Shown here: piece by piece, positions 32,999 through 59,340 of the stretch
How the letters are laid out: the number at the start of each line of letters is the position of its first letter
How positions within the stretch are numbered: the stretch's first letter is position 1
DNA from: Scolanthus callimorphus
Lineage: Eukaryota; Cnidaria; Anthozoa; Actiniaria; Edwardsiidae
Length of the DNA stretch: 64,000 bases
NCBI GenBank assembly: GCA_033964015.1
Contig: CM066925.1
Coordinates: 3,733,199 to 3,797,198 of the forward strand
Direction of reading: 5' to 3'
Notes under the pieces: model-generated
The model's input: the letters and a program-made list of their open reading frames with translations, nothing else
Told to the model about the DNA's origin: nothing
The model's database searches: none
Made by a program: the position numbers and the translations under genes

Positions 32999-33328
32999 TT
33001 AGAAATCTACCTTTGCGTTCATTCTCGGCCACAGTAAATCAAACGAGTCACGGAGAACTTGTTTTACAGTAGGTTCATCAGGGTAGAGTCCAACAACTTT
33101 TGTAGCACCAGTTTTTGTGTGTTTTAGTTTGACAGGCCACCAGGTCTTTCCATTCCCTGCGTTGCAAGCAGATGTGCCAGGGAGAAGTTGATTGCGCGAG
33201 GACTTGAACATTTCGGCTATGTAGTAGCCGTCAGGAATAGTATTCATAGGTTTATTGTCAATCCGACAGCCTCTTGCCATACGTGCGGCGGTGCATCTGA
33301 CCAAACTATTGGTGGAATTGCGCAGCAC
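32999..33328 (-). CDS. Unidentified ORF downstream of the packaging-type ATPase
   Basis: An open frame of 109 codons on the same strand as the ATPase remnant, overlapping its 3' end in another frame. The C-terminal two-thirds (after about residue 25) has credible protein composition, with a WWPVKLKHTKTG stretch and a basic, aromatic character. The first 25 residues lie in sequence that also reads in the ATPase frame, so the true start may be an internal ATG or a frame continuous with an upstream ORF. A TTTATT at 32879-32884 gives a minus-strand AATAAA downstream. I do not recognise the product. By position it may be a second gene of the same element or its displaced C-terminus. Confidence 0.4.
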   Translation of the reverse strand: MLRNSTNSLVRCTAARMARGCRIDNKPMNTIPDGYYIAEMFKSSRNQLLPGTSACNAGNGKTWWPVKLKHTKTGATKVVGLYPDEPTVKQVLRDSFDLLWPRMNAKVDF

Positions 33329-34378
33329 GGCTCTGACCTCGCGCGCTTGTTTGGAGGTTGTTGAATCGTAGTAATGTGCGTCAACTGATTGTCAGATTGC
33401 TCGTCCTTTCCCATGGTACTGTTTACTATAGCATACACTTTACAACTACCAAAAATATCGGCCAGTACTTGCTTGTTTGCTGGGGTATCTGGTTTGTTAT
33501 CTACCAAGATGTAACCGTATGTTTCTTCTGTTTCTTGGAGATAAGCGTTCATAAAACGCTCCCGATTTTTATCAAACATACGTTCGGCTACAATCCCTAT
33601 TTGTCTCCGGTCGCCGGGACTTCGAAACAACGCTAAGTACTGGGCATTGCGACTAATGTCGGTAAACTATTGAACTTTCCTCTTGGGAACATGTTTTGTA
33701 ACAACAGAACCACACGTCTAGCGTTTCTGTGGCGACCCTGAGTAAACAGGCGAGCGACCAGTCCACTATCTGAAGCTTCCGTCATCAAGTCGTCCAGAAT
33801 AATAATGTTGTTATATTCGGGATTTATTTCATTGAGATCGTTGGAAAAGTCGGGAAGCCCTCGCTCGAAACGTCACCCAGAGATATCTTCATCTGATTAT
33901 ATATTTCTTGCCATTGATTATAATACCAATATATCTGCATTGTTTTCTTGTCTTCGTAAAAGATTCTGTCTTTTTCTAAGATCTGGCGCACAAAAAATGT
34001 TTTTCCACTTTGACTTGGGCCAACGACTAATAATGAGAACTTGTGACGAAATTTAAAAGCGGGATAAGGTTCCGTATTCAAGAATGGTGCTTCGCTCGAA
34101 CCAATTCGGCCTTGGTTCGCTGTTCCTCTTTTTCTGATACGAGAGAATTGCTTGACCGTTGAAGATGTAGCTTGTGGTGTAGCACGTGGCTTGACTGAAG
34201 CGGTGGATGGAAATGTAGTTGAGACAAGACAAGTCTGTGGAGGTGAAAATACCGCCATTTTGAGCCATCGTTTTCTCTCGCCCCCACAAATCTGACGAAC
34301 CTGTCGCAAGTGATCACCTAGATACAACACATTCGCCTTATTGCACACCGGGCAAATTCTCTTGTATTTGTAAGGCAT
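33244..34378 (-). pseudogene. Zinc-finger plus P-loop packaging-type ATPase, frameshifted
   Basis: The first open segment (34378-33824, 184 codons) begins with a Cys-x2-Cys zinc-finger half (residues about 9-12). Its expected distal His position reads Arg. A low-complexity linker follows, then a Walker A motif GPSQSGKT at about residue 118. Downstream, the same strand carries a hydrophobic strand ending in DD (Walker B-like, about 33800) and a final segment to 33244. At least two frame changes, near 33840 and 33680, separate these pieces, so no intact product is made. This order fits the FtsK/HerA-type DNA-packaging ATPases (A32-like) of Polinton/Maverick, adintovirus and related DNA viruses. 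The family call rests on motif order and spacing alone. It lies head-to-head with the acidic-protein gene at 34772. Confidence 0.6.
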
Positions 34379-34457
34379 CTTGCTCCAATAAGGTCCTGAC
34401 CAAAATGAGGCATGATGTCAACTTTTTTGAACATTTTATAGTTTGCTTAATCATGTC

Positions 34458-34709: not shown

Positions 34710-34771
34710 GGAGATGCACAGCTAGGTTAGGCACATTTTATCTTTGACACTCAGGGGTGTACGTTAGAGAT

Positions 34772-35335
34772 ATGGATATGGAAACGACATATTCTGATAA
34801 TGAGGACGTTAACAGTCAAGACAGTGAAAAGTCAGTAGAATGTGATGATGATTCGGTAGATGAAAGCTCAGAGTCTGATGATTCTGAAGGTGAAAGTTCT
34901 GATGAAGAATGTGTCTGGAGTAAACTCCAGGACGAAGCAATGCGCCGCCATCATCAACACTGGGAGGGACTTGTAAAACAGTACCAGCAAGTTGGTAATA
35001 CCGAAGAGGTCGCTGAAGCGAAAGCAACAAACGAACTTATACCCAAATTTAGGAAGGAATTAAGACAAGTGCTGTATGAAAATCTTGAATGGATGCACCG
35101 TTTGAAAAAGGACCCGTACTTTAAGAAAATAAAAAACACTATGGAGAACCTTAACAATGATGATGGACTTGATTGGGCAGAAGCCACACAAGCAGCCATA
35201 GAAAAACGCAAATTTTTACTGAACGGCTTTTTAAACAGCTTGGCAAGCTGTTTAAAAAGCAGTCAGTCCCAAATCAACCAGAAGTACCTGTCTGGAACAG
35301 AAGATTCTATAAACGATTTTGAGTTTAGATTCTGA
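34772..35335 (+). CDS. Compact intronless acidic protein of the virus-like island
   Basis: An intact 187-codon ORF. Residues about 1-48 are strikingly acidic and serine-rich (for example SDDSEGESSDEE). The rest is a mostly helical domain with WSKLQDEAMRRHHQHWEGL, a Lys/Glu-rich middle, and a second helix near WAEATQAAIEKRKFL. It has no signal peptide or membrane segment and only two or three cysteines. The first ATG in frame was chosen; the open frame extends five codons upstream without an ATG. A TATA box at 34700 and an AATAAA at 35362 frame it, making a self-contained gene of about 630 bp, unlike the intron-split host genes nearby. I do not recognise the family. By context it may be a virion or regulatory protein of the element that carried the ATPase. 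A domesticated host gene is the alternative. Confidence 0.75.
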   Translation: MDMETTYSDNEDVNSQDSEKSVECDDDSVDESSESDDSEGESSDEECVWSKLQDEAMRRHHQHWEGLVKQYQQVGNTEEVAEAKATNELIPKFRKELRQVLYENLEWMHRLKKDPYFKKIKNTMENLNNDDGLDWAEATQAAIEKRKFLLNGFLNSLASCLKSSQSQINQKYLSGTEDSINDFEFRF

Positions 35336-41105: not shown

Positions 41106-42236
41106 AAAGAGAGCAAGAGTATTGCCGAGCAGGGGTGTTTTAGGACGTTCGCCGTGATGTACATTAAGTGTACATCGAATTACCGAAACATAATATAACG
41201 ATGGATTCTGGGAATGTCTGTTGTTTTCCAGTTGTTGGATTGATATTGGATCGAATTAGGGACGGACCATTAGAAATTTTAGGGGGGTAGCAGAAAAAAC
41301 AAAAACCTACACAAATTCTATTCCGGAAAAAATTTCCTGCATGACCAAAAACCTGTCAGACATTACAAAGACAAGTGACGTATCATGAGAAAAAGGGTGA
41401 TCCTCACGAGACCCTTGTGAAGCCATGTCGCTTGTCAGATCGGGAAAGAATCTATATATCTGTAATGAAACATTCGCCTTTATCTCGTGAAAAACCACCA
41501 AATACTAAAACAGAAAATATATCACTCTTTACGACTTCGACAAATGATGTTGTTTTTTCTTGTTCCTCTTCAACTCTTCTTCAACATATTTTCACAAACC
41601 GGTCTCTCGTGAGAACGTCTGTTTTGTCACACTTAATTGAGTGTTCACTTTCCCATGTCTAATTCTCTCTTTCTGTGTGACTTCTTTTCAGAAATATGTT
41701 AGACGACAGTTCTTCTCAGTTGTAGCTTTGCTGTATACAACTATTTCAAAAAATTATGTCCAAAGCCGTACTTACCCAGACCGCTCATTAGATACGGATC
41801 GTTACGAGCGACTTTGGCCCAGCGCAAACTTAACAGCGAACTTTCAGTCGAACTTCTTCTGTCAAAATTTTATCTTCTCATGTTGTATCCGCTGCGCGCT
41901 CGTGATTGTATCTGCAGATAAAACGTCGACACTGATATTGTCTCGACCGTACTGATAGAATTATCAAGTCGCTGTGATTGATACTTTACATTGGTGACCT
42001 ATTCGCATATAGATTCCATGGATTGAGTAGATGATACCGAGTTTTGGAGCATTCAGTCAGCATTCAGCGCTAACACCATGGGACCCCCTTTCTCACCTTG
42101 GATACTGATGGAGGTTTTGCTATAAATGTCTTTTTTCTAGGAGTGAATGTTCGAGTCAGGTTTTTTAGTTTTTATTAATTTGACTTATTAAATTAATTTG
42201 ATTTATCACTATATATTTTTTTTTTTCAGTTTCAAC
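41106..42236 (+). other. 5' flank of the first secreted-protein gene
   Basis: Probably holds the promoter and 5' untranslated exon, which I could not place. The ATG is preceded by T11-CAG (acceptor at 42229), so the untranslated leader is probably spliced. 41396-41415 matches repeat B (GGTGATCCTCACGAGAC), and 41625-41695 resembles repeat A near 17640-17690 (ATTGAGTGTT, TCTCTTTCTG). Confidence 0.4.
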
Positions 42237-44652
42237 ATGAGCAAAGGCCAAGTTGTAATGCTCCTTGCGGCTGTACTCCTTCTTGACCTATTTTCGGTAT
42301 CGCTCGCCTGGAGAAAGCGGCGCCGTGATAGCTCCGCGTTACACAAACAAAACTACATGGAACATAAGAAAGTAGAGGGACCCTTGGATATGTTGGAGGG
42401 CAGCATGCAACGAATGCCACATTCTGGTAAAAATATCGGTTCTTAATTCCTCACTGTAATGGCTCATTAAGACGCATCTCTTAGTGTTGTCCCAACGGGT
42501 AATAAAGTACCTGATTAGGGGCATATATAGAAGTAGAGTTCAGATAAAAGAAACTTCGAGTTTCTGTGCAAAGTTAGGGAAGCAGTTAAAATACTTGTAC
42601 TCGATTTTATGACGGGAGGTTGTAGCCCGGGTTGTACTACCCCACCTTTTTTTTTCTAATGCCCATTTAATTTTCTCCGTGCTCACGTATAGGGATGTTG
42701 GATATGTTGTTCTCGCTATAAAGAAGACATCACCCCACTGGGTCCCATTTGAGTACAGATGTTTTGACCATTTCCCTTATACAAGCTCAAAATAGGGGAC
42801 ATTGCCGAACATTCTCACTCTCAAATGTCCCGTTAAAATTCATCCAGGGGAAACTGGGTCTAGTAGATCATTGGTCAGTAGGTCTACAATATTGGATAAA
42901 ATTGTTGGCAAAAAGTGTTAGTTTTTGTCAAAAACCGCCTAGGGACTATCATTTCTAGGCTCATAACCTCCGTGTAAGAACCCGTGTATTGCACACGAGT
43001 TGCGCCACAAAGCCTCTTTCGTTTAGTAGAACCAAAGTTAATCGAGTGGAATGGTTAGGAAACCTGACACTCTGTTATTGTACTATCTCTTTGTTCAGTT
43101 TTTCTGTGGAATCCTTTTGTCTGTGCAATGTCACGGTACATGAGTACCAAAATCCAGCCAATAAGATGCAAGTGTACTTTCACCTACGCACATCATAAGA
43201 GCTTGAAACAAAAGATTGTGCACTCTCAATGTCACGTGATAGCCCCTCTGAACATCCAACCCACGCTATTATGTTGTTCCTTTGAAGTTTGCCGGGCTTC
43301 CTAACCATTCCCCTCTATAAACTATGGTAGAACGAATCATGATGAAATAATTACTGAACACAATATAATGTCCTCTGGGAATGGTTCTTACACGGAGGTA
43401 TACCCCATTTCTATCATTATGATCATTGGAGTTTACCCCCTATACTCACGCCACATGCAACTTGAAAATGGTCATTGCTAGTTAAGTTAGGTCCAGGTCT
43501 AGAATCGTGACAGAGGATTTTGAATTTAAAAGGAACTTTTTGACGTGAGAATCAAAGCGTGGTGTAATTGCAGCACTGACATCAGCGATCTTCAGTCAAA
43601 TTGCTGAGAGGGCAGTGAGAGGGGAGATATTTTGTAACCACGGAGACTACTAATTCCCCATGATGGGGTCCGATTTTCCGTTTGTAGGCATCTAAAAAAA
43701 ATTCTCGTTTGTAGAAATCCCCGGCTCGTTAAGTCATGAGACTGGCGTTACAGCCATAATCAACGCATGAACTTTGATACAGAGATGTCGAGAGAAAGAA
43801 CTACCAGAGCTCCAACACTCAAAATCAGCCATTAGCAAAGGCCAAAAATGGCTGTCACTAGCGCCCCTACAAGATGACGTGTTGAGGAGCCCTGGGTACG
43901 AGAATGGGAGTGTAAAATCACTTGGAACCACCATTTTGAATAACAATCAACGGACGATTCCCATTCTCGTACCCAGACTCCCCGACTCGTCTGCTCGCGG
44001 GGAGACTCTGGGGACATCCTTCGCTGATTGGCTGATTTTGAACGTTTAGGCATGCGCAGAGACTTGTATCTAATCTCTATCTAATCTCGCGCATGCCAGA
44101 GCTCCCCGGCTCGTCGCCTCGCAGGCGAGGCTCTGGTGACATCCATTTGAGGGTCTTCGCTGATTGGCTGAAATGGGGCGCATGCGTACATAAAAGTAGC
44201 TTAATCTCGCAACCTATGTCTTCAACTTGAACGCTCGAAAAGTAGTTGTGAGGCATAAAACCACCATTTTCTTTTGAGCATGCGTCGGCGGCTGTCACCA
44301 GAGCCTCCCCCGCGAGGTGAAGAGCCCGGGAGGTCTGGGTTCGAGAAAGGAAGATTCCTAAAACACGAGCCTGTTGCGCATACATAACTGAGAAAATTGC
44401 ATGAGATAATGCCCGCCTTGAAATTATAGCCAAACTGTAGATTTGCACCCATTGATTTACGTTTTCTTTCCTGTTTTATAATTGAAACGAAGAAGCGTTT
44501 TTTTCTTTCCAGATGATGATTCCACATTCTCTCCAGATAATGATTCCACAGAGAAAGGAGAACTGGGATTTCGCTCAGACGCGATCGACGAGACTCTGAG
44601 ACGAAAAGAACCTGAAAAGTTTGAAGATGTGGTTGATGAGCCTGGGACTTAG
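42237..44652 (+). CDS. Small secreted acidic protein, paralogue 1 (109 aa, two coding exons)
   Basis: Coding exons are 42237-42426 and 44513-44652, joined after the first base of a codon (phase 1). The donor is G|GTAAAAA and the acceptor TTTCTTTCCAG. Residues 1-24 are a clean signal peptide (hydrophobic core, cleavage after FSVSLA). The mature part begins with a basic run (WRKRRR, a possible furin-type site), continues with a Lys/His-rich segment and conserved RMPHS. Exon 2 then encodes an acidic tail starting DDDST and ending in DEPGT. There are no cysteines in the mature chain. A 3' untranslated region follows; the nearest AATAAA is about 45187. The paralogue at 55692 shares structure, phase and intron-edge sequence. 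I do not recognise the family: a peptide precursor or a secreted matrix-type acidic protein both fit. Confidence 0.8.
43735..44350. repeat. GAGCTCCCCGGCTCG inverted-repeat cluster, copy 2 (intronic)
   Basis: GAGCTCCCCGGCTCGTCGCC (about 44100), GAGGCTCTGGTGACATCCAT and mirrored blocks near 43880-43920, 43965-44005 and 44300-44345 match the cluster at 40545-41105. It lies within the intron of the first secreted-protein gene. Confidence 0.8.
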
Positions 44653-44718
44653 ACATTTGAAGAGAATGGGACGGTTCTACTTGTTTAATTAGCATAGACT
44701 TTTAAGGGTATGCTTCAC

Positions 44719-44850
44719 AGAAAAATGTTAGAGAAATTACGTGCAGGTAATCATTCACTCTTCATTGAAACGGGACGACATTGCAAGGCACCTCGAGATC
44801 AACGAATATGCAATCAATGTAATTTTGCCTCTATTAGTCCGGAGGATAAG
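44719..44850 (+). pseudogene. C-terminal fragment of a LINE-type polyprotein
   Basis: A short open piece reads LRAGNHSLFIETGRHCKAPR and continues with a CxxC (ICNQCNF). Arg/Gly-rich 'leaving the RT domain' sequence followed by a Cys pair resembles the conserved C-terminus of LINE reverse-transcriptase proteins in animals. It then loses similarity within 30 codons. It begins some 65 bases after the stop of the secreted-protein gene, so it may lie in that gene's 3' untranslated region. Confidence 0.45.
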
Positions 44851-45245
44851 CGTAAAATTTTTCAAATTGGTGATACAAGTGCCAAACTTTGTATGGACAA
44901 CCTTTAGAGGGCAGGTAACAATAAATAGTAAAGAAACATTTTGGATCCTAATCGGTTCCTTATTTTGTATGGCGCTGAAGTTTTCCCATATGTTCTATAG
45001 TAAAACCACAGGGTACCCAAATCGCAAAAAGTCAGTTTTTTTAATGAATTTATGCTTGGCGCGTAAACTCTATTGTTTTGTATTGCTCTTTCCTGCCAAA
45101 AACAAGATATATTGTTTCCACATTTGTCTGTTTTTATAGAAGGGAAGCAGAAAGCATAAATAAGTTATTTTCGGACTAAGTGCAGAAAATAAAGCTATTT
45201 TTCTCGCAAACAAATGAAATAATCGATCTAATAAGCAAACGCGCG

Positions 45246-45566
45246 TTACCGTTGCAAAGCCATGATTTCTTGCTTATAGGCATTTTGTGTGCAGCGAGAG
45301 TCGGTCTGTGCCGACTTAAAAGCTCTTAGGCGGCTTTGTGGGAGAGCAGATTGAATTGCGGACAAACATTCCTTCTCTTCCAATTTCTTTTTCTCAAGCA
45401 GCTCTTCGACTTTGTTGAGCCATTGATACTCAGATTGCATGTTATTAGCAATCCGATCAGATGGTCGGGTTTGTTGCATGTCACCTTTAGGCAAGCTGTC
45501 AAAATTAATGACATATGGTAACCAACAATTTACCCCCTTGTAAACAGTAACTTTATGTGGACTCAA
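45246..45566 (-). CDS. Unidentified protein fragment, possible exon
   Basis: 106 open codons on the minus strand with good protein character. A mixed N-terminal part contains NCWLPYVINFDSLPKG, and a Lys/Glu-rich coiled-coil-like segment is at about residues 50-72 (KVEELLEKKKLEEKE). The frame is open slightly upstream to a TAA that coincides with a possible acceptor (TTTCTAAG, about 45583). At the other end CAACG|GTAACG is a possible donor overlapping the stop. It may therefore be an internal exon, a terminal exon or a relic. I do not recognise the family, and no partner exons were found. Confidence 0.4.
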   Translation of the reverse strand: MSPHKVTVYKGVNCWLPYVINFDSLPKGDMQQTRPSDRIANNMQSEYQWLNKVEELLEKKKLEEKECLSAIQSALPQSRLRAFKSAQTDSRCTQNAYKQEIMALQR

Positions 45567-45982
45567 TTCAATGCAACCGCCTTAGAAACTGTCTCTCAGT
45601 CGCTACAAAACTTGAACTAGTTCTTTTACCTCAGTCTTTAAAAAATAATCGCCAAATTGCTGTGCTGTGGATTGAGTCCCTGACTGTGCGCGAATTGGTA
45701 TTATGATCTGTTGTCTACGCTACCAGAAACAGCGACTTAATTCTTGAGCTTCAAGGGACAGACTACGCCCTCCTCGTCAAATTGCGTACATACAATATTG
45801 CCTAGATCGGCTGAAGAATGCATCATTCGGTAGCCCCATCCGGTAGAGTTTGTCTACTAATGAATTCTTCCGTGTTTCAGCATGAATTAGCAGACCCAGA
45901 CTGCTAACGGAGGCTCCCTATTAACATTGTGTCTAGTGCTAGTCGCTTTAGTTGGGGCTCTCTCTGGCTGTCACACGGTATT
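45567..45982. other. Gene-free stretch
   Basis: Nothing recognised. Confidence 0.4.
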
Positions 45983-45986
45983 AATA

Positions 45987-46131
45987 TACACTTAATGACT
46001 GCTTCCGAGGGAAACAGCGAGTTTTGTTTTCCCGAGAATCTCGATGTTTCCCTAGACGAAGTCGAGGGAAACATCGAGATTCGAGGGAAAACAAAACTCG
46101 CTGTTTCCCGAGGGTGCAGTCATTTAGTGTT
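45987..46131. repeat. 145-bp hairpin element
   Basis: The arms run from ACACTTAATGACTGC through CGAGGGAAACAGCGAGTTTT, and are mirrored by AAAACTCGCTGTTTCCCGAG ... GCAGTCATTTAGTGTT around a ~12-base centre. An open frame through it is a by-product. Confidence 0.88.
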
Positions 46132-47565
46132 TTATTATTTAGCAAAAAGAAAATACGGTAAAAATCATCCGCCGAAATTTCTCGCTCTAGCGATGTCGCC
46201 CGTGCGGGCAACAATTTTTTAATTGTAGCCCGCGTGGGCTACATTGGATTTGTAGCCCGCCACGTCACCATGATAGAACCAATCAGAGCGCGCGCTTTGA
46301 TCGAATAAACACGAGCTATATAATAAAAAGCATTAGTTGATAAAGATTACTGCGGCATCCATGCCCTTTGGTCCTTCTAAAATTACTCTAATAAGTGCCA
46401 GGGCCGGGGTCAAAAGAGCCTGGGAAGTCTGCTTGTTGGTCAGGAGCACCTTTTTACAAGCGTTGCAGCTTGTAAGTTATCGTTCATAATAAATGTTGTT
46501 GGATTGTTATTCGCTACGCTTTGAGAGTATGAATGTTGACCCATGAAAACTACAACACGCTGGAATGTAGTTCGCTTCACTGATTACAGGGAAAACCAAG
46601 TGAAAGTTACAACAGGTGAAAACAAAGTACAATGACAAAAACCGGCTCGAGCAAACCGAAAGAGTAGTGAAGTTTAGCATTTTTTCTCGATGCCTTAAAA
46701 TACTTTAATGAACTCAAGACTTGGAGGTTATCTTTGGTATATATTCAAGAATAATTTACGGAAGTATCAAAAACTTTGTCATATGAGATTTGTGTCAGAG
46801 GCGAAAAGTGTAAGTTTTATAACAAACGGAAGATTTATAATATAATTTCTCAAATTTTGCAGTTTCCTTGAACACATGCCAAACAAAATCGGAAGCATTC
46901 TAAGAAGTGAAATTTGGCTGGTACATTGCCTTGGGTTTGTAGAATTTTCGGGCGGCAAGGATTTCTTAATTCCGCAGATATTAGCCATTCTTTTTCAAGG
47001 AAATATTTGCGGCTTAAATAGTTTTGCCATTTTGGAGCCTGAAAAAGTCCGTTCGAATAACATAAAACCGGCCCAATGAATTCCCTCCAAACTTGCTGTG
47101 ATTAATGCTAGCTACTCAGGGATTAGTGTGAGGGGTGTCATATTAAAAGTTTAGATCGCGCAACGCGTTTGATGGCTGCGTATTATAAGCAAAGGTGTGG
47201 TTATAACGTTGCTATAGCAACTCCGATCACAACAAAATGCACACTACAACAAAGTTCAAACCCTCCAGGGTAACCATGTGAAAGTTCAGACCGGTACAGG
47301 TTTTTGAGCCTGAACAGCAGGCAAACAAAGTTTGGTGGTGGAGAGCAGAAAAAATTGTAGGCAGCCTCCTTAAACCAATATATTTTCGCACGATAATCGA
47401 ACTTCTGGTTCAGCGTTAATTCCCCATTAATGCCCCGCTGAATATCCCTGCTATAGAAGGTTCGTGTTAAATTCCCTGCAGACGAAAGTGAGGAAAAACG
47501 AGGACTAAAACAACACTGCACATCCGGGACATTCGGTACATAAGATATGGAAAGATATGGAAAAT
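46132..47565. other. Gene-free stretch
   Basis: A small hairpin repeat (GTAGCCCGCGTGGGCTAC, about 46226-46243) is present; otherwise nothing is supported. Confidence 0.4.
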
Positions 47566-47681
47566 ACGAGTGCCCCGGGAGTTCTCCCATGTAAAAGTGA
47601 TAGGGATGCTCGTCGGGACATCGGAAAATATACCCTAAAAAATACCAGGACATAAAAAATCCAACCCCTAAAAAATACCTT
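47566..47681. repeat. Left half of an inverted-repeat element split by the BEL/Pao insertion
   Basis: GAGTGCCCCGGGAGTTCTCC ... GGATGCTCGTCGGGACATCG is the imperfect reverse complement of about 54700-54785 (CGACGAGCACCCCTATCAGG ... CCCGGGTACGAGTG). Both halves are rich in CCCCTAAAAAATACC. The halves are continuous once 47682-54475 and one ACCTT are removed. Confidence 0.8.
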
Positions 47682-47820
47682 TTTGCGAGATTGACTGAGG
47701 CAGAACTACCCTGGCTTCGACATGTTTATTCTTTTCTGATCGACTGATAGGATTACAATTTATGACGTGATAATTAGAGTAAATTAGTGTTCAGACTGAA
47801 AGATTCCATATTTCATAACA
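47682..47820 (-). repeat. BEL/Pao 3' LTR
   Basis: 139 bp, the partner of 54339-54475. Its outer edge abuts the ACCTT duplication at 47677-47681. Confidence 0.9.
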
Positions 47821-48110
47821 TCCTCCGGGGCCAGCAATGTTCATTATTTGAGTTCGTGTATCGAAAAATAAGTTGTAAGAGTATATTCTTAAGTGGTATA
47901 GTTTACATGTCTTTTGAAAGTTCTGAAATTCTTCTTGTCGCCCTTTGAGCGGCTAGTCTACTGGGGCGAGCTTTACTGGAAGGTTTTTCTTCCTTATCTT
48001 GGTTTGATGGCGCGATGTCTCCGCTGACCGCTACTTCTACTTCATCTGATACTTATAATGGGTACAGCTTTTCGATTGGTCTTGTCAATTGTGTTATATC
48101 TTTTCCGTTA

Positions 48111-50230
48111 CTAACACGTAAAGTGACTGCTCGCACCATTCCATCTAAACCAGGATGAAGTTTTGTGGCCACTCCTTAGTCTCCATCTATTACGTGGAAG
48201 ATCTTCATGTATCAGTACCACATCTCCTTGCTTTACTGTGCTTTCTTTGCGATATTTGTTCTTCAGTTGAGTGTGGTGCTCTCGAAGATTTAGATATTCA
48301 TTCTTCCATCTTGTCCAAAAATGATTTTGTAGTTTCTGATGGTATTTTGCTCTCCGAGTCAGATCGTCTTTTGTTGAGCTTGTAGGTGCGTAATCTGGAT
48401 CGCTGTCTTCATCTTTGCTATAGACGTCTGGTAGTGCTATCAATCTGTGACCGCATAAGAAATCTGACGGTGTGAGTGGGAGTGCTTCTTTGTTGTCGGC
48501 ATAGGGATAGGTTAATGGACGACAATTGAGGGTTGCTTCAACCTCGGCGAGGATTGTGGTCATTTCAATGAAATTTAATGACGTTTTCCCTAGGGTTTCT
48601 TTAGGCAGCGTTTTACCAGTCCAACTAGACGTTCATAAAACCCTCCCCACTAAGGAGCTCTCTCTGCGATAAATTCCCAAATAATGCCTTTTTTCGAAAG
48701 GAATTGTTGTACAATAGTGTTTTTAAGTATTTCAATAAGTTCTTTGGAAGCTGTCTTGAAGGTTTTAGCGTTGTCTGTTACTATATGGCGTGGCACTCCT
48801 CGTCTTGCGATAAATCTCTTGAATGCTCTAATGAAGGCAGCTGCCGTTTGATCTTCTACTAATTCCAAGTGTACTGCTCTAGTTGTTGCGCATGTGAAGA
48901 GGCAAATGTACGACTTGGCTTGATTGTTTGCTTGATTTCGAATATACAGTGGGCCGGCATAGTCGATACCTGTTGCCTGGAACGTCAGAGATCCTTTAAC
49001 TCTTGATGGGGGTAGAGGTGGTGTTGTTACTGAGCGAAGAGGGGGACCTTCCACTCGCCTACATGTGACGCATCTAGAAATCACCTTTCTTATTGTCTGA
49101 CGTCCTTTCGGTATCCAATGTGTTTGTCTGATTTGCGTGAGAGTTTCACCTACACCGCCGTGCATAGTGTCTGTGTGCGCAGACTCGATCACTAGTTCTG
49201 TAAGATGGCTGTTTTGAGGAAGGAGTACAGGAAATTTTGCGTCAAACGATAAGCTAGAATGTTGTAATCTTCCTCGGCAACGAATAAGACCATCCTCGTC
49301 TAAATAAAGTTGCAATTGTTGGATGAGGGTCGGTGATTTTCCCTTAGTCTTGTTTTGTAGATGCGATAACTCCTGTTTGTAACTCTTGGCTTGAACGGCT
49401 TTGATGAGCAGTTTGCGTGACATGCTGATATCTTTGGCTGTGATAATGAGTGCGTCTTCTTTGCTTGTCTTTTTCCATTTGTCTACACTCTTCAAAATTA
49501 ATGCTGTGATTCTGAGCGTTTTGTTCCATGTACTATATCGTGTTATGTCTACTATATTCAGCATGTTGGGCTGGTTATTGTTGTTTACGGTGTTGACTGT
49601 TATTGGTTGGAATTCCTCTTCTTCTATAGTTTGCTCGAGTTGCCTCGAGGGCCATTTGTCTTTGGGCTCATTGATCCATGCAGGTCCGTTTTGCCAGATT
49701 GTGTTTCGAGCTATATGTTGTGCAGAGAGACCTCGTGTCAACAGATCGGCTGGATTTTCTTTGCTTGGACAGTGGTGCCAAAGGCTTGGAGTTGTGATTT
49801 GTGTGATTTTATTTACTCTATTTTGTATGAATTGTGGGAGATGTCTTTTTGATGACAGCCATGAGATCACTATCTGTGAATCACTCCACATGTTGACGTT
49901 CACGTTAGCGAGATTGAGGTTTTGTGTTAAGTATTCGCAGAGTTTTGCTCCTAAGAGAGCGGCTAATAGTTCCAGCCTTGGTAGGGTTTGATTTTTGACG
50001 GGCGCTACTTTACTTTTGGCCATTAGGAAGATTGTTGAGGTCCTTTCTGTTGATGATTTTCGTAAGTAAGCGACTGCGCCATAAGCTAGAGTGCTACTAT
50101 CATAAAAAATGTGAAGTTGATACTGTGATGTGTTGTCTAAATTGTATGATCTTGGTACGAAAATGGGAGTCAATTCTTTGATCTCGCTAAACCACTGTGC
50201 CCATCGTTCTCCATGGGGAGAAATACCGAA
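48111..50230 (-). pseudogene. BEL/Pao RNase H and integrase region
   Basis: The main frame (to 48650) opens with RNase H-type sequence (LHIFYDSSTLAYGAVAYLR; MWSDSQIVISWL). The integrase zinc-binding module follows (HTDTMHGGVGETL then CVTCRR), and the integrase core with GIDYAGPLYI and IVTDNAKTF holding the first two catalytic Asp residues. The third catalytic residue and the C-terminal DUF5641-like region (LNCRPLTYPYADNKEALPLT) lie in another frame from 48563 to 48111, after a break near 48600-48650. The last part lacks an intact C-terminus. Confidence 0.88.
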
Positions 50231-51232
50231 TGGACATGCGCACTTGAGCGTGGCACTTCTAAAATATGGACTCAGATTACCTTCAAATAATTTACTGTAA
50301 ATGTATGGCAATGAAACTTAAATTCAAGATAACACTGGGCTAAATTCGAAATCGAAAGTTACTTTGCCTCCGATCGAAACAACATGTTGTTCATCTTTCT
50401 TTTCGTGGTAATATTGGTGGGCTCCAGTATAAAATCGGTTCGGTTTTGTCAAATCTAGGTTACAAACTCAAGAGCTCTGTTTACAAGAGGAAGTCTATGC
50501 CACGGCGCTAAAATACACAGAACTAACAGTCAAATTTCGTAACGTTATAAGCTCGTACAAACCTCACTTTACCTCCAGATCAAAAGAACAAGAATTCCTT
50601 CGTAAATTCACACAGATTTCACGTCATGTAAATGATTTTTCAGCTCGGTTTTAAGATCCACTTCCATGTTAAACGAGGCTTCATTGTTTGGCCCTTGAAG
50701 TCCGCCTCGAAGCAAAAAAAGCTCGAAAAAATGCCGATTTCTTCGCTTCTTTCCGCTCTGAGCGGCCAGTTCTTCGACAGTGTACAACCAGGCGTTCCTC
50801 TGCTAATAATATGTGTCCAAAAAGACTAGAAACGAGTACCAGAGTGCCTAGCGAACTTAATTTTTAAATATTAGCGCGAACTTGAAGCGAACCGGCGAAG
50901 GCAAAGTTCAGTATTGACTCTCGTTATTTATCAACGCATCCTCGATATTTTCCCAAAATTAACAAAAAGCATGATATATTATTTTACTTTGCTTTCAAAT
51001 TGTTTCTTCTTGGCATGTTATCAGCCGAAAAGGCAAAGTTTTAAGCAATTTATAACAACCCTTCACTCTCTCTTCTGTCTCTCCCGGAAGTCAGGGTTTG
51101 TTTTTGCATACTAATTGACCCACCATCGACAGCGACCAATGAGAGACGCAATAGGACAATCGACTTTATTGACAGCATAATTAGGGTCATGTTTAAACTC
51201 CTCCCATTATCATTCGCTATTTCTCGCCATGC
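50211..51232. mobile_element. ~1.02-kb element inserted into the BEL/Pao pol gene
   Basis: The ends CATGGGGAGAAATACCGAATG and CATTCGCTATTTCTCGCCATG are inverted copies with two mismatches over 21 bases. Removing this interval brings the RT end (KEHS) next to the RNase H start (ERWAQWFSEIKEL). No transposase is present. The target duplication is unclear: CAT or a slightly longer overlap is possible. Confidence 0.8.
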
Positions 51233-52271
51233 TGTGTTCCTTCGGTAGCTCCTCGTCCCAATCGATATCTAGTTTCCATATTTCTTGGAGCATGATTTTA
51301 GCTTTGACCGTAAAAGGTTCAACAAATCCTAGAGGATCGAAAATTTGTGATGCAATACTGAGCACTGTTCGTTTTGTCGCTCTACTGGCGTTTAATGTTT
51401 CTGTTTCTTTGACTATTTTGTCTAGCGATAGGGATATTGTATCTGTATCGGCATGCCATTCTAGACCGAGGACCTTCACTGTTCTTGACGCTCCTGTGCT
51501 GTCTTCTTGAATTTTGTTGTTCAGTTCGCTTGCGTTTGTTGTCCATTGTCGGAGGTTCATACCTGCTTCTAGTAAATGGCTGCGTGCTTTTGTGTAATAT
51601 TCTAAAGCTTTAGCCTCGGTGGGACTTGCACCAGTTACTACATTGTCCATATACATTGTGTGCATAAGGGCCTTTGCTACCCAGTCATTCTTTTTGTTGA
51701 AGTGGTACTTTAAGGTTGCGTTGAGTAGGAAGGGTGATGGGGCTGCACCAAACAGGACTCGACGAAATCGCAGCGTCTTCAAATTATCATTGCTTGCGGG
51801 ATTGCAGATATTTCTTAACCAGAGGAATCGGGTTGCGTCTCTGTCTATAGGATCTATTTCAATTTGAAGGAATGCTTTTTCTATATCTGCAATGAGGCCG
51901 AAATTGTGGCGCCTGAAATTCAGTAGAATACGTGTTAAGTCTTGCATTAGGTTAGGTCCTGTGTGCAGGCAGTCGTTCAGGCTTAATGCTTTAGGAGACG
52001 CCCTTGCTGATGCATCGTAAACTATACGAGTTTTTGTAGTAGTACTATCGGCCTTGAATACAGGAAAATGTGGGATGTAATGCACAAGCCCTAGATGTGT
52101 TTTATGATCTACAACCTCTTCTATAAATCCTGAGGCGATCTGTTCTTCTAATTGTTCGTTGTACTTGGTAACTAAATTTGGGTCTTTTTTATTGAGACTA
52201 TGCAACAAATGTGTTAATCGTGTTCTGCTTAAATAGAAGTAGTCGGCAAGTCGTCTTTGTTTTCTTTCCAT
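51210..52271 (-). pseudogene. BEL/Pao reverse transcriptase region
   Basis: 353 codons of the RT domain. Visible landmarks are TRIVYDASARASPKALSLND (fingers/palm), LIADIEKAFLQIEI (first catalytic Asp), RFRRVLFGAAPSPFLLNATL, and TMYMDNVVTGA (YMDN in place of the commoner Y.DD), then VLGLEWHADTD. The frame ends artificially at EELPKEHS followed by six codons of inserted DNA, where the element at 50211-51232 begins. The N-terminus is out of frame with protease. Confidence 0.9.
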
Positions 52272-52331
52272 GGGAGTCTGACACTATATCTTCCGCTTGA
52301 CGGTTTGAATGAAATTGTTTCTTGAAATGAC

Positions 52332-53200
52332 TTAATGACTATATTGTTTGTGTTTTGGTATGTTGTTGATTTCCCAAAACTTGCTCAAAAGCTGACTAAG
52401 CTTATCATCTTCATTTGTCTTGCTAGTTTGAGCGTTTGTTACTTGACATAATGTGTTTTGTGCGTAATCTTCGATATTGGGCGTTGGTCGCGATAGTAAC
52501 CATCCGAATTTGCTTTGTATAGCCATCCATTTATCGTCGTATGATTTTCTTATGTTTCCGATAATAATTTGGTTGTAGTAGTCTATGCCTATAAGGATAT
52601 CGACGTTATGTTCATCTGCCGCTTTGAATTTGTCTGCTAGATCGAGAACTTTGAATTCTGCGGGAACGTTAACTTGTTGAAGTGTGACCGATAATGGGGG
52701 GCAGATGATTGGCGTTACGAGAGCTTTGATGATGATATCCTCCGAGAGTGAATGTAGCGTGAATGAGACGACTTCATAAGACTTTTGTTGGCTTTCGATA
52801 GTTCCGAATGTGGTTATGTTAAGCTTTTCATTGTGTGTGGATTGCAACTTGAGTTTGTCCTTTAATTGTTTCGTGATAAATGTTCTTTGGGAACCTGTAT
52901 CTATCAAGATGCGTGATTGGCATGTACGTGAGGATCCGCTTGCTTTAGCAAGGGCAGTTTGCATAAGAGTGTTTCTGTTTGTTGAATTTGGTACTAAATT
53001 GGTCATAACGGGAGTTTGCGGATCTTTAGGTGGGTTTGATTTTGATTGATCGTTTTGCTTAGACTCTTCTTTTTCTTTGCTTTGTTGTGAAATTGCTTCG
53101 CAGAGAGATGTATGATGTTTTTGTTTGCAATGAAAGCATCTTCCTCTAGATTGACATTTGCGTTTGCTATGTCCTGCCCTTGCGCAATTGAAACAGAGTC
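52332..53200 (-). pseudogene. BEL/Pao zinc knuckle and aspartic protease region
   Basis: The frame is open upstream of the first ATG (53006) and includes CCHC-type knuckles near 53095-53200. The protease active site reads ILIDTGSQRTFITKQL (about residues 33-48 after the ATG), the DTG/S triad of retroviral-type aspartic proteases in the BEL/Pao style. A second conserved block, IDYYNQIIIGNIRKS, lies about residue 145. The frame ends at 52332 just after PKHKQYSH, where the RT-proximal spacer should continue, so a stop or frame change separates it from RT. Confidence 0.85.
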
Positions 53201-53209
53201 GTTTTTCTG

Positions 53210-54316
53210 CTAGTATGGCTCTCCTTTGGGCGACAGTTTTAATAGTATCACATTGGTCTGGACGATGCCTGCCATCGCAATATACACATGGCCTTGGTTC
53301 ATTTCTTTCGTTTCGCTGACTAGGGGGATTTGTGTTCTTTGTGCGTTTGCTAATAGCGCGCTAGCTGTAGGTAAGGGGGTGTCTTCGATAGGTGGATCGT
53401 TTTCTACTTTTAAGTGCCCTTTTTCTCTCGTCTCTATTTCTTGACGGAGTGCTATTCTTAGCTCATTTAGCGAACTATCTGCTGAGGAGTTAGCTCTAAA
53501 TATTTGACAGCGCAGTTGTTCTGGTAGTTTCTTTAACAATATTGGTATTAGTAGATTTCCATAGCTGTATGTTTCAACCCCTAACGCTTCTAATGCGCGG
53601 ATGCTGCTTTCACAATTGTCGTAAAATGCTCTTAACTCGTGTATTTCGCTTGATGTTGTTCTACTTTTCGACAGTGCTTCCATATGAGCGTTAATTAGAA
53701 TTTGCTTCCTTCCAAAACGATCCGTCAGCATTTGGATGGCTTTCTCGTAATTTAGTGACGAAATAGATAAGCCTGCAATAGCGCGTGCAGCTTCTCCTAC
53801 AATCATTCCTTTTAGGTAGTTCATTTTATCAACGTTCGATAATGCCGTATTAGTGTGAATTGCATTGGAATAACTGTCCCAAAATGTTAGCCATTCTAAA
53901 GGGTTTCCATTAAATCGTTGTAAACTGAGCTTTGGTAATTTAACTTGGATTTTGGGCGCTGTTTGGCTTTCTTCTAATTGACTAATTTGGAACGAACTCA
54001 CCGTGGGTTGCTCTTTCACTTCAATTAGTTCTTGAATTTTCAGGATCCAGAATTCGATGTTGTCTTGAAATGTGAGCGCTAAATCCGTTTGTTCATGTAC
54101 ATCTTCGTCACTTTCCATGGCGTCTATAATTTTCTGATCCATTTTTGTTACTTCATCTAGTCTCCTCGATAGTCGTCCCACGATGGCTTTCAGTTCTGTC
54201 CGATCGATCTTGTCGGTTTCTGCCATAATCCTTTCCGCGCGCTTTATGTCTGATATGCAGTGTCCTTTGTAGGAGCCCCTGACAGCCTTTAAATGTGCGA
54301 TCTCTGCCTTTGACAT
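53210..54316 (-). pseudogene. BEL/Pao gag region
   Basis: A 368-codon ORF begins 22 bases inside the 5' LTR. It has an N-terminal basic/helical part, acidic stretches, and the conserved gag core with LPKLSLQRFNGNPLEWLTFW (about residues 127-146), the usual BEL/Pao 'F.G....W..F...F' signature. A one-base frame change near 53340 means the last ~40 codons leave the gag frame. The zinc-knuckle cysteines (CFNC, CFHCKQKHH) lie in the next frame at about 53095-53200. In an intact element gag and pol form one long frame or are joined by frameshifting. Here the frameshift is taken as decay because other breaks follow. Confidence 0.85.
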
Positions 54317-54319
54317 TGT

Positions 54320-54337
54320 AGTTGGGTTTCGGCACCA
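54320..54337 (-). other. Primer-binding site of the BEL/Pao element
   Basis: Immediately inside the 5' LTR the minus strand reads TGGTGCCGAAACCCAACT. The leading TGG complements the CCA end of a tRNA primer. The tRNA species was not determined. Confidence 0.7.
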
Positions 54338-54338
54338 A

Positions 54339-54475
54339 TTTGTGAGATTGACTGAGGCAGAACTACCCTGGCTTCGACATTTATTCTTTTCTGATCGACT
54401 GATATGATTACAATTTATGACGTGATAATTAGAGTTAATTAGTGTTCAGACTGAAAGATTCCATATTTCATAACA
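54339..54475 (-). repeat. BEL/Pao 5' LTR
   Basis: 137 bp, almost identical to 47682-47820, differing by a two-base deletion (CGACATTTATTC against CGACATGTTTATTC) and a few substitutions. Confidence 0.9.
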
Positions 54476-54785
54476 ACCTTAAAAAACAAAATGACCCCTA
54501 AAAAATACCAACAATAAACCTTTTTCGGTATTTTTTATTGTTTTTCATCTCAAAACAGCTTATTTTAGAGCTATAAATAAACAAAGAAAGAAAGAAAAAG
54601 TTTTACTTGGTTTGTGACCCTTTCATTCATTTGCGTACCCCTAAAAAAATACCATTTATTAGTGAAAGGCACAATGTTTCTCCGATACCCCCTAAAAATA
54701 CCTGAGAGTCGATTTTGACCCCTAAAATATACGACGAGCACCCCTATCAGGTCGACATGTGAAGAACCCCCCCCGGGTACGAGTG
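54476..54785. repeat. Right half of the inverted-repeat element split by BEL/Pao
   Basis: Starts with the duplicated ACCTT, continues in CCCCTAAAAAATACC-type sequence and ends in CCCCGGGTACGAGTG, the partner of the left half. Confidence 0.8.
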
Positions 54786-54821
54786 TTTTAGTTTCCGGTG
54801 GAACACTGGCATCCATATAAT

Positions 54822-54855
54822 AATTAACAACTATCCCCAAAGGGGAGGTGAATAA

Positions 54856-54887
<32 letters not shown>

Positions 54888-55186
54888 AGTATATATCCAC
54901 CGCTAGGCACCGACCTGAGGGAGGATAGTTGTTTTAGTATATACCAAATCAGTAGAATAAAATACGGTGATTAAAAGATTCAAAACGCAGTATCGCGCAC
55001 GAAACGAGCCGCCATTTTGAGAGTTTTCTCAAAACAGTAAATAGTGTTTGATATCTACTATTTCAGGAACCAATCAGAGCGCGCGAAAATGACTATTCGC
55101 TGATTTGGTATATACTAGTAGATTAGTATATACCAAATCAGATTATAGTCAGATTAGTAGATACCAAATCAGTGAACAGTCATTTT

Positions 55187-55244
<58 letters not shown>

Positions 55245-55250
55245 TAAGTA
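54822..55250. repeat. Inverted-repeat element pair related to 2138-2452
   Basis: A complete copy (54822-55123) is followed by a partial second copy (55125-55250) in the opposite sense. Both contain GTGGATATATACC and AACTATCCCC blocks. Confidence 0.8.
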
Positions 55251-55691
55251 ATACAAGGGCGCGCGGATGGAGTTTACCTTTGAGTGATTCACATTGATAT
55301 CGAACAAGTGAGCGCAGAGAAACGAAAGATAAGTGAACACAAGAAGATAAATTCCATATCTCCAAGCGTCCATGTGTTATTCTGTTTATTACATAAACAA
55401 GAAACACTGCCATGTTCCAGGGAAGCGCCTTATTACATTGGCCACGGGAGAAGACATCTGATTGGCTGATATTTTCACATGTAAAAATATCGTATTTTCA
55501 TACGGTTTTTCTCGGTGGCATAAATCCCTGTAACTGAGGTTTATGAAATAAAGTAGTTTCTTTTAGGAACTTCAAGCGAAGATGTTTTTTTGTAAATGAA
55601 ATTTGTTCTAGGCTAACGAGTGTTCGAGGTTTTATCGTTTTAATTAATTTCATTAACTATTCTCCCTTAATTTCTGTTTTTCAGTTTCACC
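55251..55691 (+). other. 5' flank of the second secreted-protein gene
   Basis: 55600-55691 aligns with 42135-42236: CTAGG...GTGTTCGAG, TTTTAATTAATTT and TTTTTCAGTTTCAC. The acceptor TTTTTCAG ends at 55684, implying an untranslated first exon further upstream that was not located. Confidence 0.5.
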
Positions 55692-57880
55692 ATGAGCAAA
55701 GGCCTAGTTGTAATGATTCTTACCGGTGTACTCCTTGTTGACCTATTTTCGGTATCGCTCGCCCAGAAATGGAAGAACCCTTTTGGCCTACTGTTACACA
55801 AGCGAAACTACAAACATAAGAGAGTGGAGCGATCCTTGGAGGACAAAATGGAACGAATGCCACATTCTGGTAAAAATATCGATTCTTATTCTTCATCTTT
55901 TAGTTTTGGCCCGGTGCTTTATACGGCTTTACTCCTTTTTCAGAAAAGGTTGCTTAGGTGGTTGCTCAATGTGTAGCTCAAAGGTTGCTCAGGTGTATAC
56001 AAGTGAAGGTCAAGATAGGGGAGAAGCTAGTTTCTGCAAAGTTACAGAAGCTAGGATTCTGCGAGAGAACAGTGGTGCCGGAGCCACTACCTCTCAGAGC
56101 TGAATTTTAGGAGCAAGTATCCTTAAATAAAATAGATATTAAAAGGTGAATGCTCCAACGCTTTCCTCGCAGCGAGAGGAGTCCAGTGCAATAAAAACAG
56201 TTACCCCTAGATCATGCTCTGAGAAAATGAGGTCTGAAAAAGGGGTATTGGGTACCTAAGGGGGTAGATGCCGTGCCGTGTACCCATCACGTCCCCTGAA
56301 AAAATTGGGTACCAGTCGAGTACAAGTGTTTTGACCTCTTCCCTTAGATAGTTTGATTGGTTGGACAGCAAAGTCAAAAATCAAAACTAAAGTTTGATCA
56401 TTTAAAAACGTGGGTCGCGATGCAGCGCGGTTTTAGCTGTTAATTAAGTAATTATCCATGCAAGAACTAGGCAAACCTCCATTATTATTCAGCCATGCCA
56501 CTATCTCGGTTGTGATTGGCTAAGAGTACGCAGCGAAACCTTGTTGGCGCGCAGTGCCTGACGTCATACTACAGACATTAGGATTGATGCACTTTAATGA
56601 CGTCATAACGCAAGCCAATAGGTTTGGCCGCCATCTTGGTATTTCCGAATTGAAAGCCGGTTTTGCGAATATTCTCGTTGAATCTGTTATGATTTTTGCC
56701 AAGAGATCATTGCTCAGGATATCTAAACATCAACTATGGCTATTTGAATTGACTACGAAAAGGAAAATACCAATTGACGTAAGATAAGGTTGAAAAACCG
56801 TGTCGCCGTGCACGGCCTCATCGCTGACTTCGTTTAGCTAGGTAAGAATTCTTGGTTGCTGAATAATAAAACAATTATTGAATTCAGTTTTCGCATGATA
56901 GTGAGATTTGTCAACGCCTCGAGTTAGTGTTATCCTCCTCAGCTTCGCTTCGGCAGATAACACAAACCTCGGCGTTGCCAAATCTCACTATCATGCTCAA
57001 CCTCATCCAATAAGTGTTAATTGTTCTACGGCATTGATGGTTCCCCACGTGGGATATGTCACATTTTTCTACCACAGAAAGTTTTTCTAGCATAATGAAT
57101 TTGCTGATTTTCATGTCTAAGCCAATGAAATTATTGAATTCAGTTTTCGCATGATAGTGAGATTTGTCAACGCCTCGAGTTAGTGTTATCCTCCTCAGCT
57201 TCGCTTCGGCAGATAACACAAACCTCGGCGTTGCCAAATCTCACTATCATGCTCAACCTCATCCAATAAGTGTTAATTGTTCTACGGCATTGATGGTTCC
57301 CCACGTGGGATATGTCACATTTTTCTACCACAGAAAGTTTTTCTAGCATAATGAATTTGCTGATTTTCATGTCTAAGCCAATGAAATTATTGAATTCAGT
57401 TTTCGCATGATAGTGAGATTTGTCAACGCCTCGAGTTAGTGTTATCCTCCTCAGCTTCGCTTCGGCAGATAACACAAACCTCGGCGTTGCCAAATCTCAC
57501 TATCATGCTCAACCTCATCCAATAAGTGTTAATTGTTCTACGGCATTGATGGTTCCCCACGTGGGATATGTCACATTTTTCTACCACAGAAAGTTTTTCT
57601 AGCATAATGAATTTGCTGATTTTCATGTCTAAGCCAATGAAATTGCCTATATTGTCAATAGAAATTAATTGCATTCCAGCGTGCTTTGCCGTTGCTTGCC
57701 TAGTTCTTATACGGACCATTACTTAAACGAAAATGGAACACTTTTTTTCCAGATGATGATTCTACAGAGAAAGGAGAACAGGGATTAAGGTCAGTCGCGA
57801 TCGACGAGACTAGGTGTCCTCCATTATGCCAAGAAATGTTTGAAGACTCCGCTTATGAGCCTGGGAATTCTGATATTTGA
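55692..57880 (+). CDS. Small secreted acidic protein, paralogue 2 (101 aa, two coding exons)
   Basis: Coding exons are 55692-55869 and 57753-57880, split in phase 1 with donor G|GTAAAAA and acceptor TTTTTTTCCAG, as in the paralogue at 42237. The signal peptide (residues 1-24) matches paralogue 1 at 19 of 24 positions and ends FSVSLA|Q. The mature chain begins QKWKNPF. It has possible dibasic cleavage sites (HKR, KHKR), then conserved RMPHS, DDDSTEKGE and AIDET blocks. Its acidic tail is remodelled, with two cysteines (RCPPLC) and the ending EPGNSDI. Without splicing the frame reads on into the intron to 55976, giving an alternative C-terminus that is probably not real. The family is unrecognised. 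The intron carries an exact 256-bp triplication. Confidence 0.8.
56873..57640. repeat. Three exact 256-bp tandem copies in an intron
   Basis: Units start at 56873, 57129 and 57385, and 3 x 256 = 768 bases. I saw no differences between units. Each holds a hairpin (GCATGATAGTGAGATTTGTC mirrored by AATCTCACTATCATGC), and a same-length ORF recurs in each copy. Confidence 0.95.
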
Positions 57881-58644: not shown

Positions 58645-59340
58645 TCTCTAAAACGAATTGATGATTATCATCAAATCTCAATTGCCTTCGAATTGACGAT
58701 TATCATCAATCTTCTGACTTGCCAAAACCCTAGGTTTTGGGTTAGGCTTTGGGTTAGGTTTTGGGTTAGGCTTTGGGTTAGGCTTTGGGTTAGGCTTTGG
58801 GTTAGGCTTTGGGTTAGGCTTTGGGTTAGGCTTTGGGTTAGGCTTTGGGTTAGGCTTTGGGCTAGGCTTTGGGCTAGGCTTTGGGTTAGGCTTTGGGTTA
58901 GGCTTTGGGTTAGGCTTTGGGTTAGGCTTTGGGTTAGGCTTTGGGTTAGGCTTTGGGTTAGGCTTTGGGTTAGGCTTTGGGTTAGGCTTTGGGTTAGGCT
59001 TTGGGTTAGGCTTTGGGTTAGGCTTTGGGTTAGGCTTTGGGTTAGGCTTTGGGTTAGGCTTTGGGTTAGGCTTTGGGTTAGGCTTTGGGTTAGGCTTTGG
59101 GTTAGGCTTGGGTTAGGCTTTGGGTTAGGCTTTGGGTTAGGCTTTGGAAAAAGTCTGGCCCCATGCCCCGACCCTTATCCCCTAAAGCGCGTCCACTAGT
59201 ACTTATGTATTGTCTTCGCTCTGATGCATGTGGGTTACTTGCGCATGTCAAGTAACTATGACAGAAGATTGATGATAATCGTCAATTCGAAGGCAATTGA
59301 GATTTGATGATAATCATCAATTCGTTTTAGAGAACATGCT
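58645..59340. mobile_element. Foldback element enclosing a telomere-like satellite
   Basis: Arms at about 58648-58717 (TCTAAAACGAATTGATGATT ... ATTATCATCAATCTTCTG) and 59263-59335 (CAGAAGATTGATGATAATCG ... TTCGTTTTAGAGA) are near-perfect reverse complements of about 70 bases. Between them lie the 12-bp array and ~110 unique bases. No protein is encoded. Confidence 0.85.
58733..59150 (+). repeat. Telomere-like 12-bp satellite GGGTTAGGCTTT
   Basis: About 35 head-to-tail units. Only a few vary: GGGTTAGGTTTT near the left end, two GGGCTAGGCTTT units near 58858-58880, and one 11-base unit near 59107. The unit contains GGGTTAGG, the metazoan telomere repeat interrupted by CTTT. The long Leu-Trp-Val-Arg frame through it is a by-product. 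Confidence 0.97.

Follow-up and report, generated by a model that had tools for sequence, protein, structure and literature searches.

The antimicrobial peptide (AMP) families of Hydra are, as excerpts of their description have it, paralogous, clustered and taxonomically restricted, and combine a signal peptide with a bipartite charge; nine arminins have been reported (PMC10945409). Another small secreted family, the SCRiPs of corals and anemones, includes some members with possible convertase sites, and the excerpted account gives ratios of nonsynonymous to synonymous divergence (dN/dS) of 0.576, 0.619 and 0.638 for three subfamilies and 1.30 for a fourth (PMC10892658). Tandem duplication is common in corals, with 29.9% of the genes of Porites lobata tandemly duplicated, according to the relevant part of PMC10236652. 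Here, we analysed a window of 64,000 nt from the sea anemone Scolanthus callimorphus (contig CM066925.1, below C15, positions 3733199-3797198), in which the original prediction had recognised a duplicated pair of genes, here A and B, for a small secreted acidic protein. We find that A and B are two of about 12 copies of an apparently undescribed, tandemly amplified two-exon family, mostly clustered on one chromosome. In layout it resembles the Hydra AMP families, and it may encode secreted defence or effector peptides that evolve fast and are probably cleaved by convertases, a reading to which we assign a probability of roughly 0.4.

Results

The genome, comprising 597 Mb on 302 contigs, was searched with both proteins and with single exons, all match counts being lower bounds. 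Protein A retrieved 17 exons, of which 12 were first and 5 second exons, protein B likewise 17, comprising those 12 first exons again plus 5 second ones, and a DNA query with the c7533 first exon led to the same 12 loci (12 of 12 candidates scored). The exon-2 DNA query yielded nine matches from eight candidates, and the second exons of c3560, c3568, c7533 and C5 were located separately. Ten of the first-exon loci reside on the window's own contig, eight of them inside 231 kb (Table 1). The exons of c4364, about 9.2 kb apart, were paired by comparison with those of C60 (about 2.7 kb apart), and this pairing is thus probable rather than certain. Among the nine exon-2 matches, an orphan second exon of the family (C15:3657567-3657732), itself frameshifted, follows the frameshifted exon 2 of c3650 by about 3 kb and holds a CPRC motif. 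The predicted duplication is therefore real, but a simple gene pair is ruled out by the 12 first-exon loci. Chance open reading frames (ORFs) are ruled out by the recurrence of the design at these loci, and a high-copy mobile element by the number of copies found (12), the BEL/Pao element between A and B being a separate minus-strand insertion.

Within the window, the two-exon models of A and B were borne out: both junctions run from a GT donor to an AG acceptor, with the intron in phase 1 after PHS (S, then G/AT for D), 19 of the 24 signal-peptide residues are identical, and the flanks align. At the DNA level, the two genes share 124 nt across the ATG (81% identity), 53 nt across the donor (91%), 49 nt across the first acceptor (73%) and 73 nt at the start of exon 2 (86%). 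The second exon was predicted to begin with DDDST, which agrees with the common form of the family, DDDSTEKGE. In gene A, because a 24-nt tandem duplication contains the acceptor (CCAG/ATGATGATTCCACATTCTCTCCAG/ATAATG), exon 2 may start either at 44513 (DDDSTFSPDNDSTEKGE) or at 44537 (DNDSTEKGE), and the extra residues that follow from the first of these starts are absent from the eight other translated second exons. The intron of gene B contains a 256-bp unit in three tandem copies, identical over 260 nt (window 56873-57644).

All 12 family copies carry a CAG 7-8 nt 5′ of the start codon, which suggests a further intron in the 5′ untranslated region (5′UTR), although no donor for this putative intron was identified. 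Upstream of exon 1, a block around ACACCATGGGAC is conserved in A, c3650, c4364 and C60, and it could be a 5′UTR exon, a promoter or a short upstream ORF.

The family was described as unrecognised, and our searches agree with this. Neither the two proteins of a first search nor the six of a second matched a Pfam family above the cut-off, and PDB sequences contained no significant match (best E 3.1). A protein collection of 5.8 billion, in which coral coverage is probably poor, returned no match, whether queried with A by itself (6 candidates) or with a profile built from six sequences (5885 candidates); coverage seems poor because a control, one ORF of the window that is possibly itself mobile, found one relative only. 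Viral contigs (19 pattern stretches) and prokaryote contigs (63) likewise gave no match, in collections from which records near the window's own genome may be excluded. Literature searches by motif string found no papers, a weak negative because such strings are seldom printed, and among the titles and abstract openings found by topic none names the family.

In its common form, the first exon encodes MSKGLVVMLLAGVLLVDLFSVSLA, WRRRR, a segment that varies in length and ends in KR, and NYKHKxVERPLEDNMERMPHS, while the second encodes DDDSTEKGExGFRSDAIDE followed by a freely varying C-terminus; C5 and c7533 have a second type of tail, DRDxxEEREQR. Two cysteines each are found in B and c3706, and a CPx(x)C motif occurs in both (CPPLC and CPTC, respectively). 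The claim that short conserved blocks alternate with variable sequence is thus upheld, the same blocks recurring across paralogues.

The predicted secretion is likely, given a hydrophobic core in all 11 first exons, 10 of which also have S-x-A where cleavage is predicted. The strongest structural rival, doubtful in our view, is a single-pass membrane microprotein, in which residues 5-23 would stay uncleaved as a signal anchor, the cluster of arginines would face the cytosol and the acidic tail would be a fast-evolving cytosolic domain. Such an anchor would be consistent with the best 19-residue hydropathy of 2.27 to 2.68 (11 of 11), with the polybasic run of at least three residues that, in 10 of the 11 first exons, begins one residue past the predicted signal peptide, and with the Pfam matches of A and c4364, which all lie far below the cut-off and of which the longer ones are to the membrane proteins SIT and TMEM51. 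However, Asp17, present without exception, leaves a hydrophobic core of 11 residues, which is more typical of a signal peptide, S-x-A suits signal peptidase, and B has no arginine run. Asp17 and S-x-A therefore favour a cleaved signal peptide over an anchor.

KR is found in 10 of the 11 first exons, separated from the polybasic run by 2 to 11 variable residues, and is extended to GKR in two (c3650 and c3560). With two basic sites in most copies and a conserved block immediately after KR, the family could also encode the precursor of a secreted signalling peptide, akin to a neuropeptide or hormone, that prohormone convertases would free at the basic sites and that would act on a receptor; GKR would then be a possible amidation and cleavage site. 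We consider this unlikely, since peptide repeats are absent, the segment between the basic sites is hypervariable, both GKR copies are damaged, and hormone genes do not usually occur as 12 loci of high turnover.

The two exons differ in charge in all nine two-exon copies, with +1 to +8 in the mature part of exon 1 and -4 to -9 in exon 2, and the frameshifted c3650 retains the same signs (+4 and -3). For the whole mature protein, the isoelectric point (pI) ranges from 5.0 to 9.2 over eight copies, a set that counts c3650 with its shifted tail; five are net negative, among them A (5.0, rising to 5.6 if the second acceptor is used) and B (5.6), in each of which the first half is basic. The label of a small acidic protein consequently fits the two window genes but not the family, as three of the eight copies are net basic and the exon-1 half is basic. 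Acidic skeletal matrix proteins of corals are secreted, as this family probably is, and likewise have an acidic segment. A role in mucus or in the organic matrix of a skeleton, with the tail binding calcium and the basic part binding polysaccharide, would accommodate the acidic second exons and the five net-negative copies, and SCRiPs, too, were first taken as calcifying, as excerpts of PMC10892658 note. Yet this role is improbable: the first half is basic, three copies are net positive with pI up to 9.2, Asp-rich runs do not extend beyond DDD, repeats, including the Asp/Glu-rich repeats of coral matrix proteins, are absent, and dN/dS of the tail is near 1.

Divergence was estimated by the Nei-Gojobori method and pooled over 10 first and 8 second exons, the pairs not being independent; owing to frameshifts, C60 was excluded from all dN/dS estimates and c3650 from exon 2, and c3560 was left out of the pooled values. 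The signal peptide has a synonymous divergence (dS) of 0.120 and a nonsynonymous divergence (dN) of 0.080 (ratio 0.67, bootstrap 0.29-1.5), the mature part of exon 1 a dS of 0.447 and a dN of 0.276 (0.62, 0.41-1.02), and exon 2 a dS of 0.423 and a dN of 0.434 (1.03, 0.66-1.6). Selection on short motifs, as originally proposed, is in keeping with the recurrence of the blocks across paralogues and the maintenance of the frames, but less so with dN/dS of about 0.6 in exon 1 and 1.0 in exon 2; because the latter ratio is about 1.0 and the intervals are wide, selection on the tail would be weak, relaxed or mixed.

Of 5000 column permutations, 3 reached the difference in dS between the signal and mature parts. 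Over about 19.5 signal sites, no synonymous difference separates A, c7533 and C5, while 0.33 to 0.49 of the synonymous sites differ in their mature exon 1; in other pairs, synonymous divergence of the signal goes up to 0.25. Gene conversion may have contributed to the near-fixed signal DNA, as in these three copies, of which C5 lies on another contig, though other pairs do reach 0.25. Furthermore, the exon trees conflict, as c7533 groups with c4364 in exon 1 (support 0.75) and with C5 in exon 2 (0.98), and c3560 and c3568 differ at a proportion of synonymous sites of 0.15 in exon 2 and 0.45 in mature exon 1. These conflicting histories, drawn from short alignments, suggest exon-wise exchange or unequal rates.

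Near-constant signal peptides with a faster-changing remainder raise the question of a venom component of nematocytes or gland cells, and the family pattern does resemble that of animal toxin families. Conotoxin-type and mussel CRP-I precursors also have a signal peptide more conserved than the rest, along with gene turnover. The clustering of the family, a signal dS about a quarter of that of the rest and dN/dS values near those of three of the four SCRiP subfamilies in the excerpted account (PMC10892658) would all fit. Nevertheless, the present family has no cysteine framework, none of the proteins tested reached the cut-off of a Pfam family, and no PDB sequence matched, which makes a venom role improbable as well.

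Both exons are open and flanked by GT/AG in 8 of the 12 copies (A, B, c3601, c3706, c3568, c4364, c7533 and C5). In c3560, the start codon is lost (ACG for ATG), exon 2 of c3650 is frameshifted, C60 carries frameshifts, and no exon 2 of c3580 was found within about 15 kb downstream. The lost start codon and the frameshifts, including that of the orphan second exon, represent gene turnover. In a neutral simulation, the probability that both exons stay open was 0.004 to 0.115 per copy, a range that is no formal test, as the copies share ancestry and are not independent. Even so, it argues against drift, and the family is real and probably functional. Decaying remnants without function, compatible with the four broken or incomplete loci and an exon-2 dN/dS of about 1, are thus very improbable, given that the intact copies include c7533 and C5, far from the cluster, and given the neutral expectation.

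Other features of the window are separate from these genes. Between A and B, the outer repeat pieces of the BEL/Pao long terminal repeat (LTR) retrotransposon are 94-97% identical and therefore suggest a fairly recent insertion. A long array of the 12-bp unit TTTGGGTTAGGC, which is similar but not identical to telomere repeats, occupies window 58731-59140. Three adjacent open frames on the minus strand (32999-34417), one with the P-loop-like GPSQSGKT, have no Pfam match and may belong to a mobile or virus-derived element. On the plus strand, an acidic open frame of 195 codons (34748-35335) has no Pfam match and one relative, at 60% identity, in the protein collection. Finally, overlapping open frames on the minus strand (8716-9448) consist of repeats of a unit some 140 bp long (TNLCAMLRAHTNLCEKASKDELHKFV...).

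Table 1. Positions of genes A and B, the other family loci and the retrotransposon (window positions, unless kb of a contig are given)
Feature	Position	Strand	Remarks
ACACCATGGGAC block	42037-42113		Upstream of gene A; also upstream of exon 1 at c3650, c4364 and C60
Acceptor-like CAG, gene A	42227..42236	+	7 nt 5′ of the ATG; 5′UTR intron suggested
Gene A exon 1	42237..42426	+	Signal peptide of 24 aa, then 39 aa of basic mature part (RKRRR, HKQ, RMPHS)
Gene A intron	42427..44512	+	GT..AG, phase 1
Gene A exon 2	44513..44652	+	Acidic tail, stop TAG; alternative start 44537 via second acceptor
BEL/Pao LTR retrotransposon	47677..54480	-	Between A and B; Peptidase_A17, RVT_1, Integrase_H2C2, rve
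Acceptor-like CAG, gene B	55682..55691	+	5′ of the ATG
Gene B exon 1	55692..55869	+	Signal peptide, then basic mature part (QKWKNPFGLLLHKR...) lacking a polybasic run of three
Gene B intron	55870..57752	+	GT..AG, phase 1; three tandem 256-bp units
Gene B exon 2	57753..57880	+	Acidic tail with CPPLC, stop TGA
Cluster loci on C15	3560, 3568, 3580, 3601, 3650, 3706, 3775 (A), 3788 (B) kb	3601: -	
Further loci on C15	4364, 7533 kb	both -	
Locus on C5		-	
Locus on C60	near contig end		Damaged

Discussion

The resemblance of the family to the Hydra AMP families is one of layout, known here from descriptions and not from homology. The order of charges in the arminins is the reverse of that in the present family, in which the basic part comes first and the acidic part last. 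What arminins and periculins do share with it, as far as the excerpts describe them, is a small precursor with a signal peptide, here a predicted one, and a bipartite charge, mostly clustered paralogues, the lack of relatives found, here in collections that probably cover corals poorly, and a rapid turnover (PMC10945409). Bipartite charge (9 of 9 copies) and clustered paralogues (12 loci, 8 within 231 kb) are present here, whereas the complex cysteine pattern published for most members of the Hydra families, according to the same excerpts, is missing (PMC10945409). Similarly, the excerpted description of the SCRiPs gives them eight conserved cysteines (PMC10892658), compared to none or two in the eight intact copies of our family.

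Should the family indeed encode defence or effector peptides, secretion, cleavage, charge neutralisation and the defence role itself would be linked as follows. Exons 1 and 2 would jointly encode a secreted prepropeptide, which would enter the secretory pathway and lose its signal peptide there. Furin-type or prohormone convertases could then cleave at the polybasic run, at KR or at both, with the acidic tail neutralising the basic part until release. The released product would act extracellularly, as a defence peptide or as an effector that shapes the microbes.

Several observations weigh against this proposal. No segment has a dN/dS clearly above 1, and the bootstrap intervals are wide. The putative processing sites are not universal, since B has no polybasic run and A has KQ in place of KR, and a cut at KR would discard the segment with the strongest positive charge. 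A polyarginine stretch is uncommon directly behind a signal peptide and would suit a membrane anchor as well. In C5, the exon-1 mature part carries a charge of only +1. Across the copies, the hydrophobic fraction of this part is low (0.09 to 0.26), unlike that of a classical amphipathic AMP, and in seven of the nine two-exon copies the mature protein is free of cysteine.

A bolder version of the defence or effector reading, unlikely as a whole, would be a hitherto undescribed family of anthozoan effectors. Each gene would supply a polycation from exon 1 together with a matching polyanion from exon 2, the exons would reassort between paralogues, and the signal DNA would hardly change, silent sites included, with a constant leader thereby delivering a fast-changing cargo that shapes the microbiome or symbionts. 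Why silent sites of the leader are conserved is a question apart, and one that other species can help to test.

Taken together, the family looks like another lineage-restricted family of secreted peptides, of a kind frequent in corals and other cnidarians. With splice sites and intact copies now known, tests of its expression, proteomic presence and activity become direct. Domain-based annotation overlooks many such lineage-specific secreted peptides, which are one of the routes by which cnidarians tune their contact with microbes, prey and symbionts.

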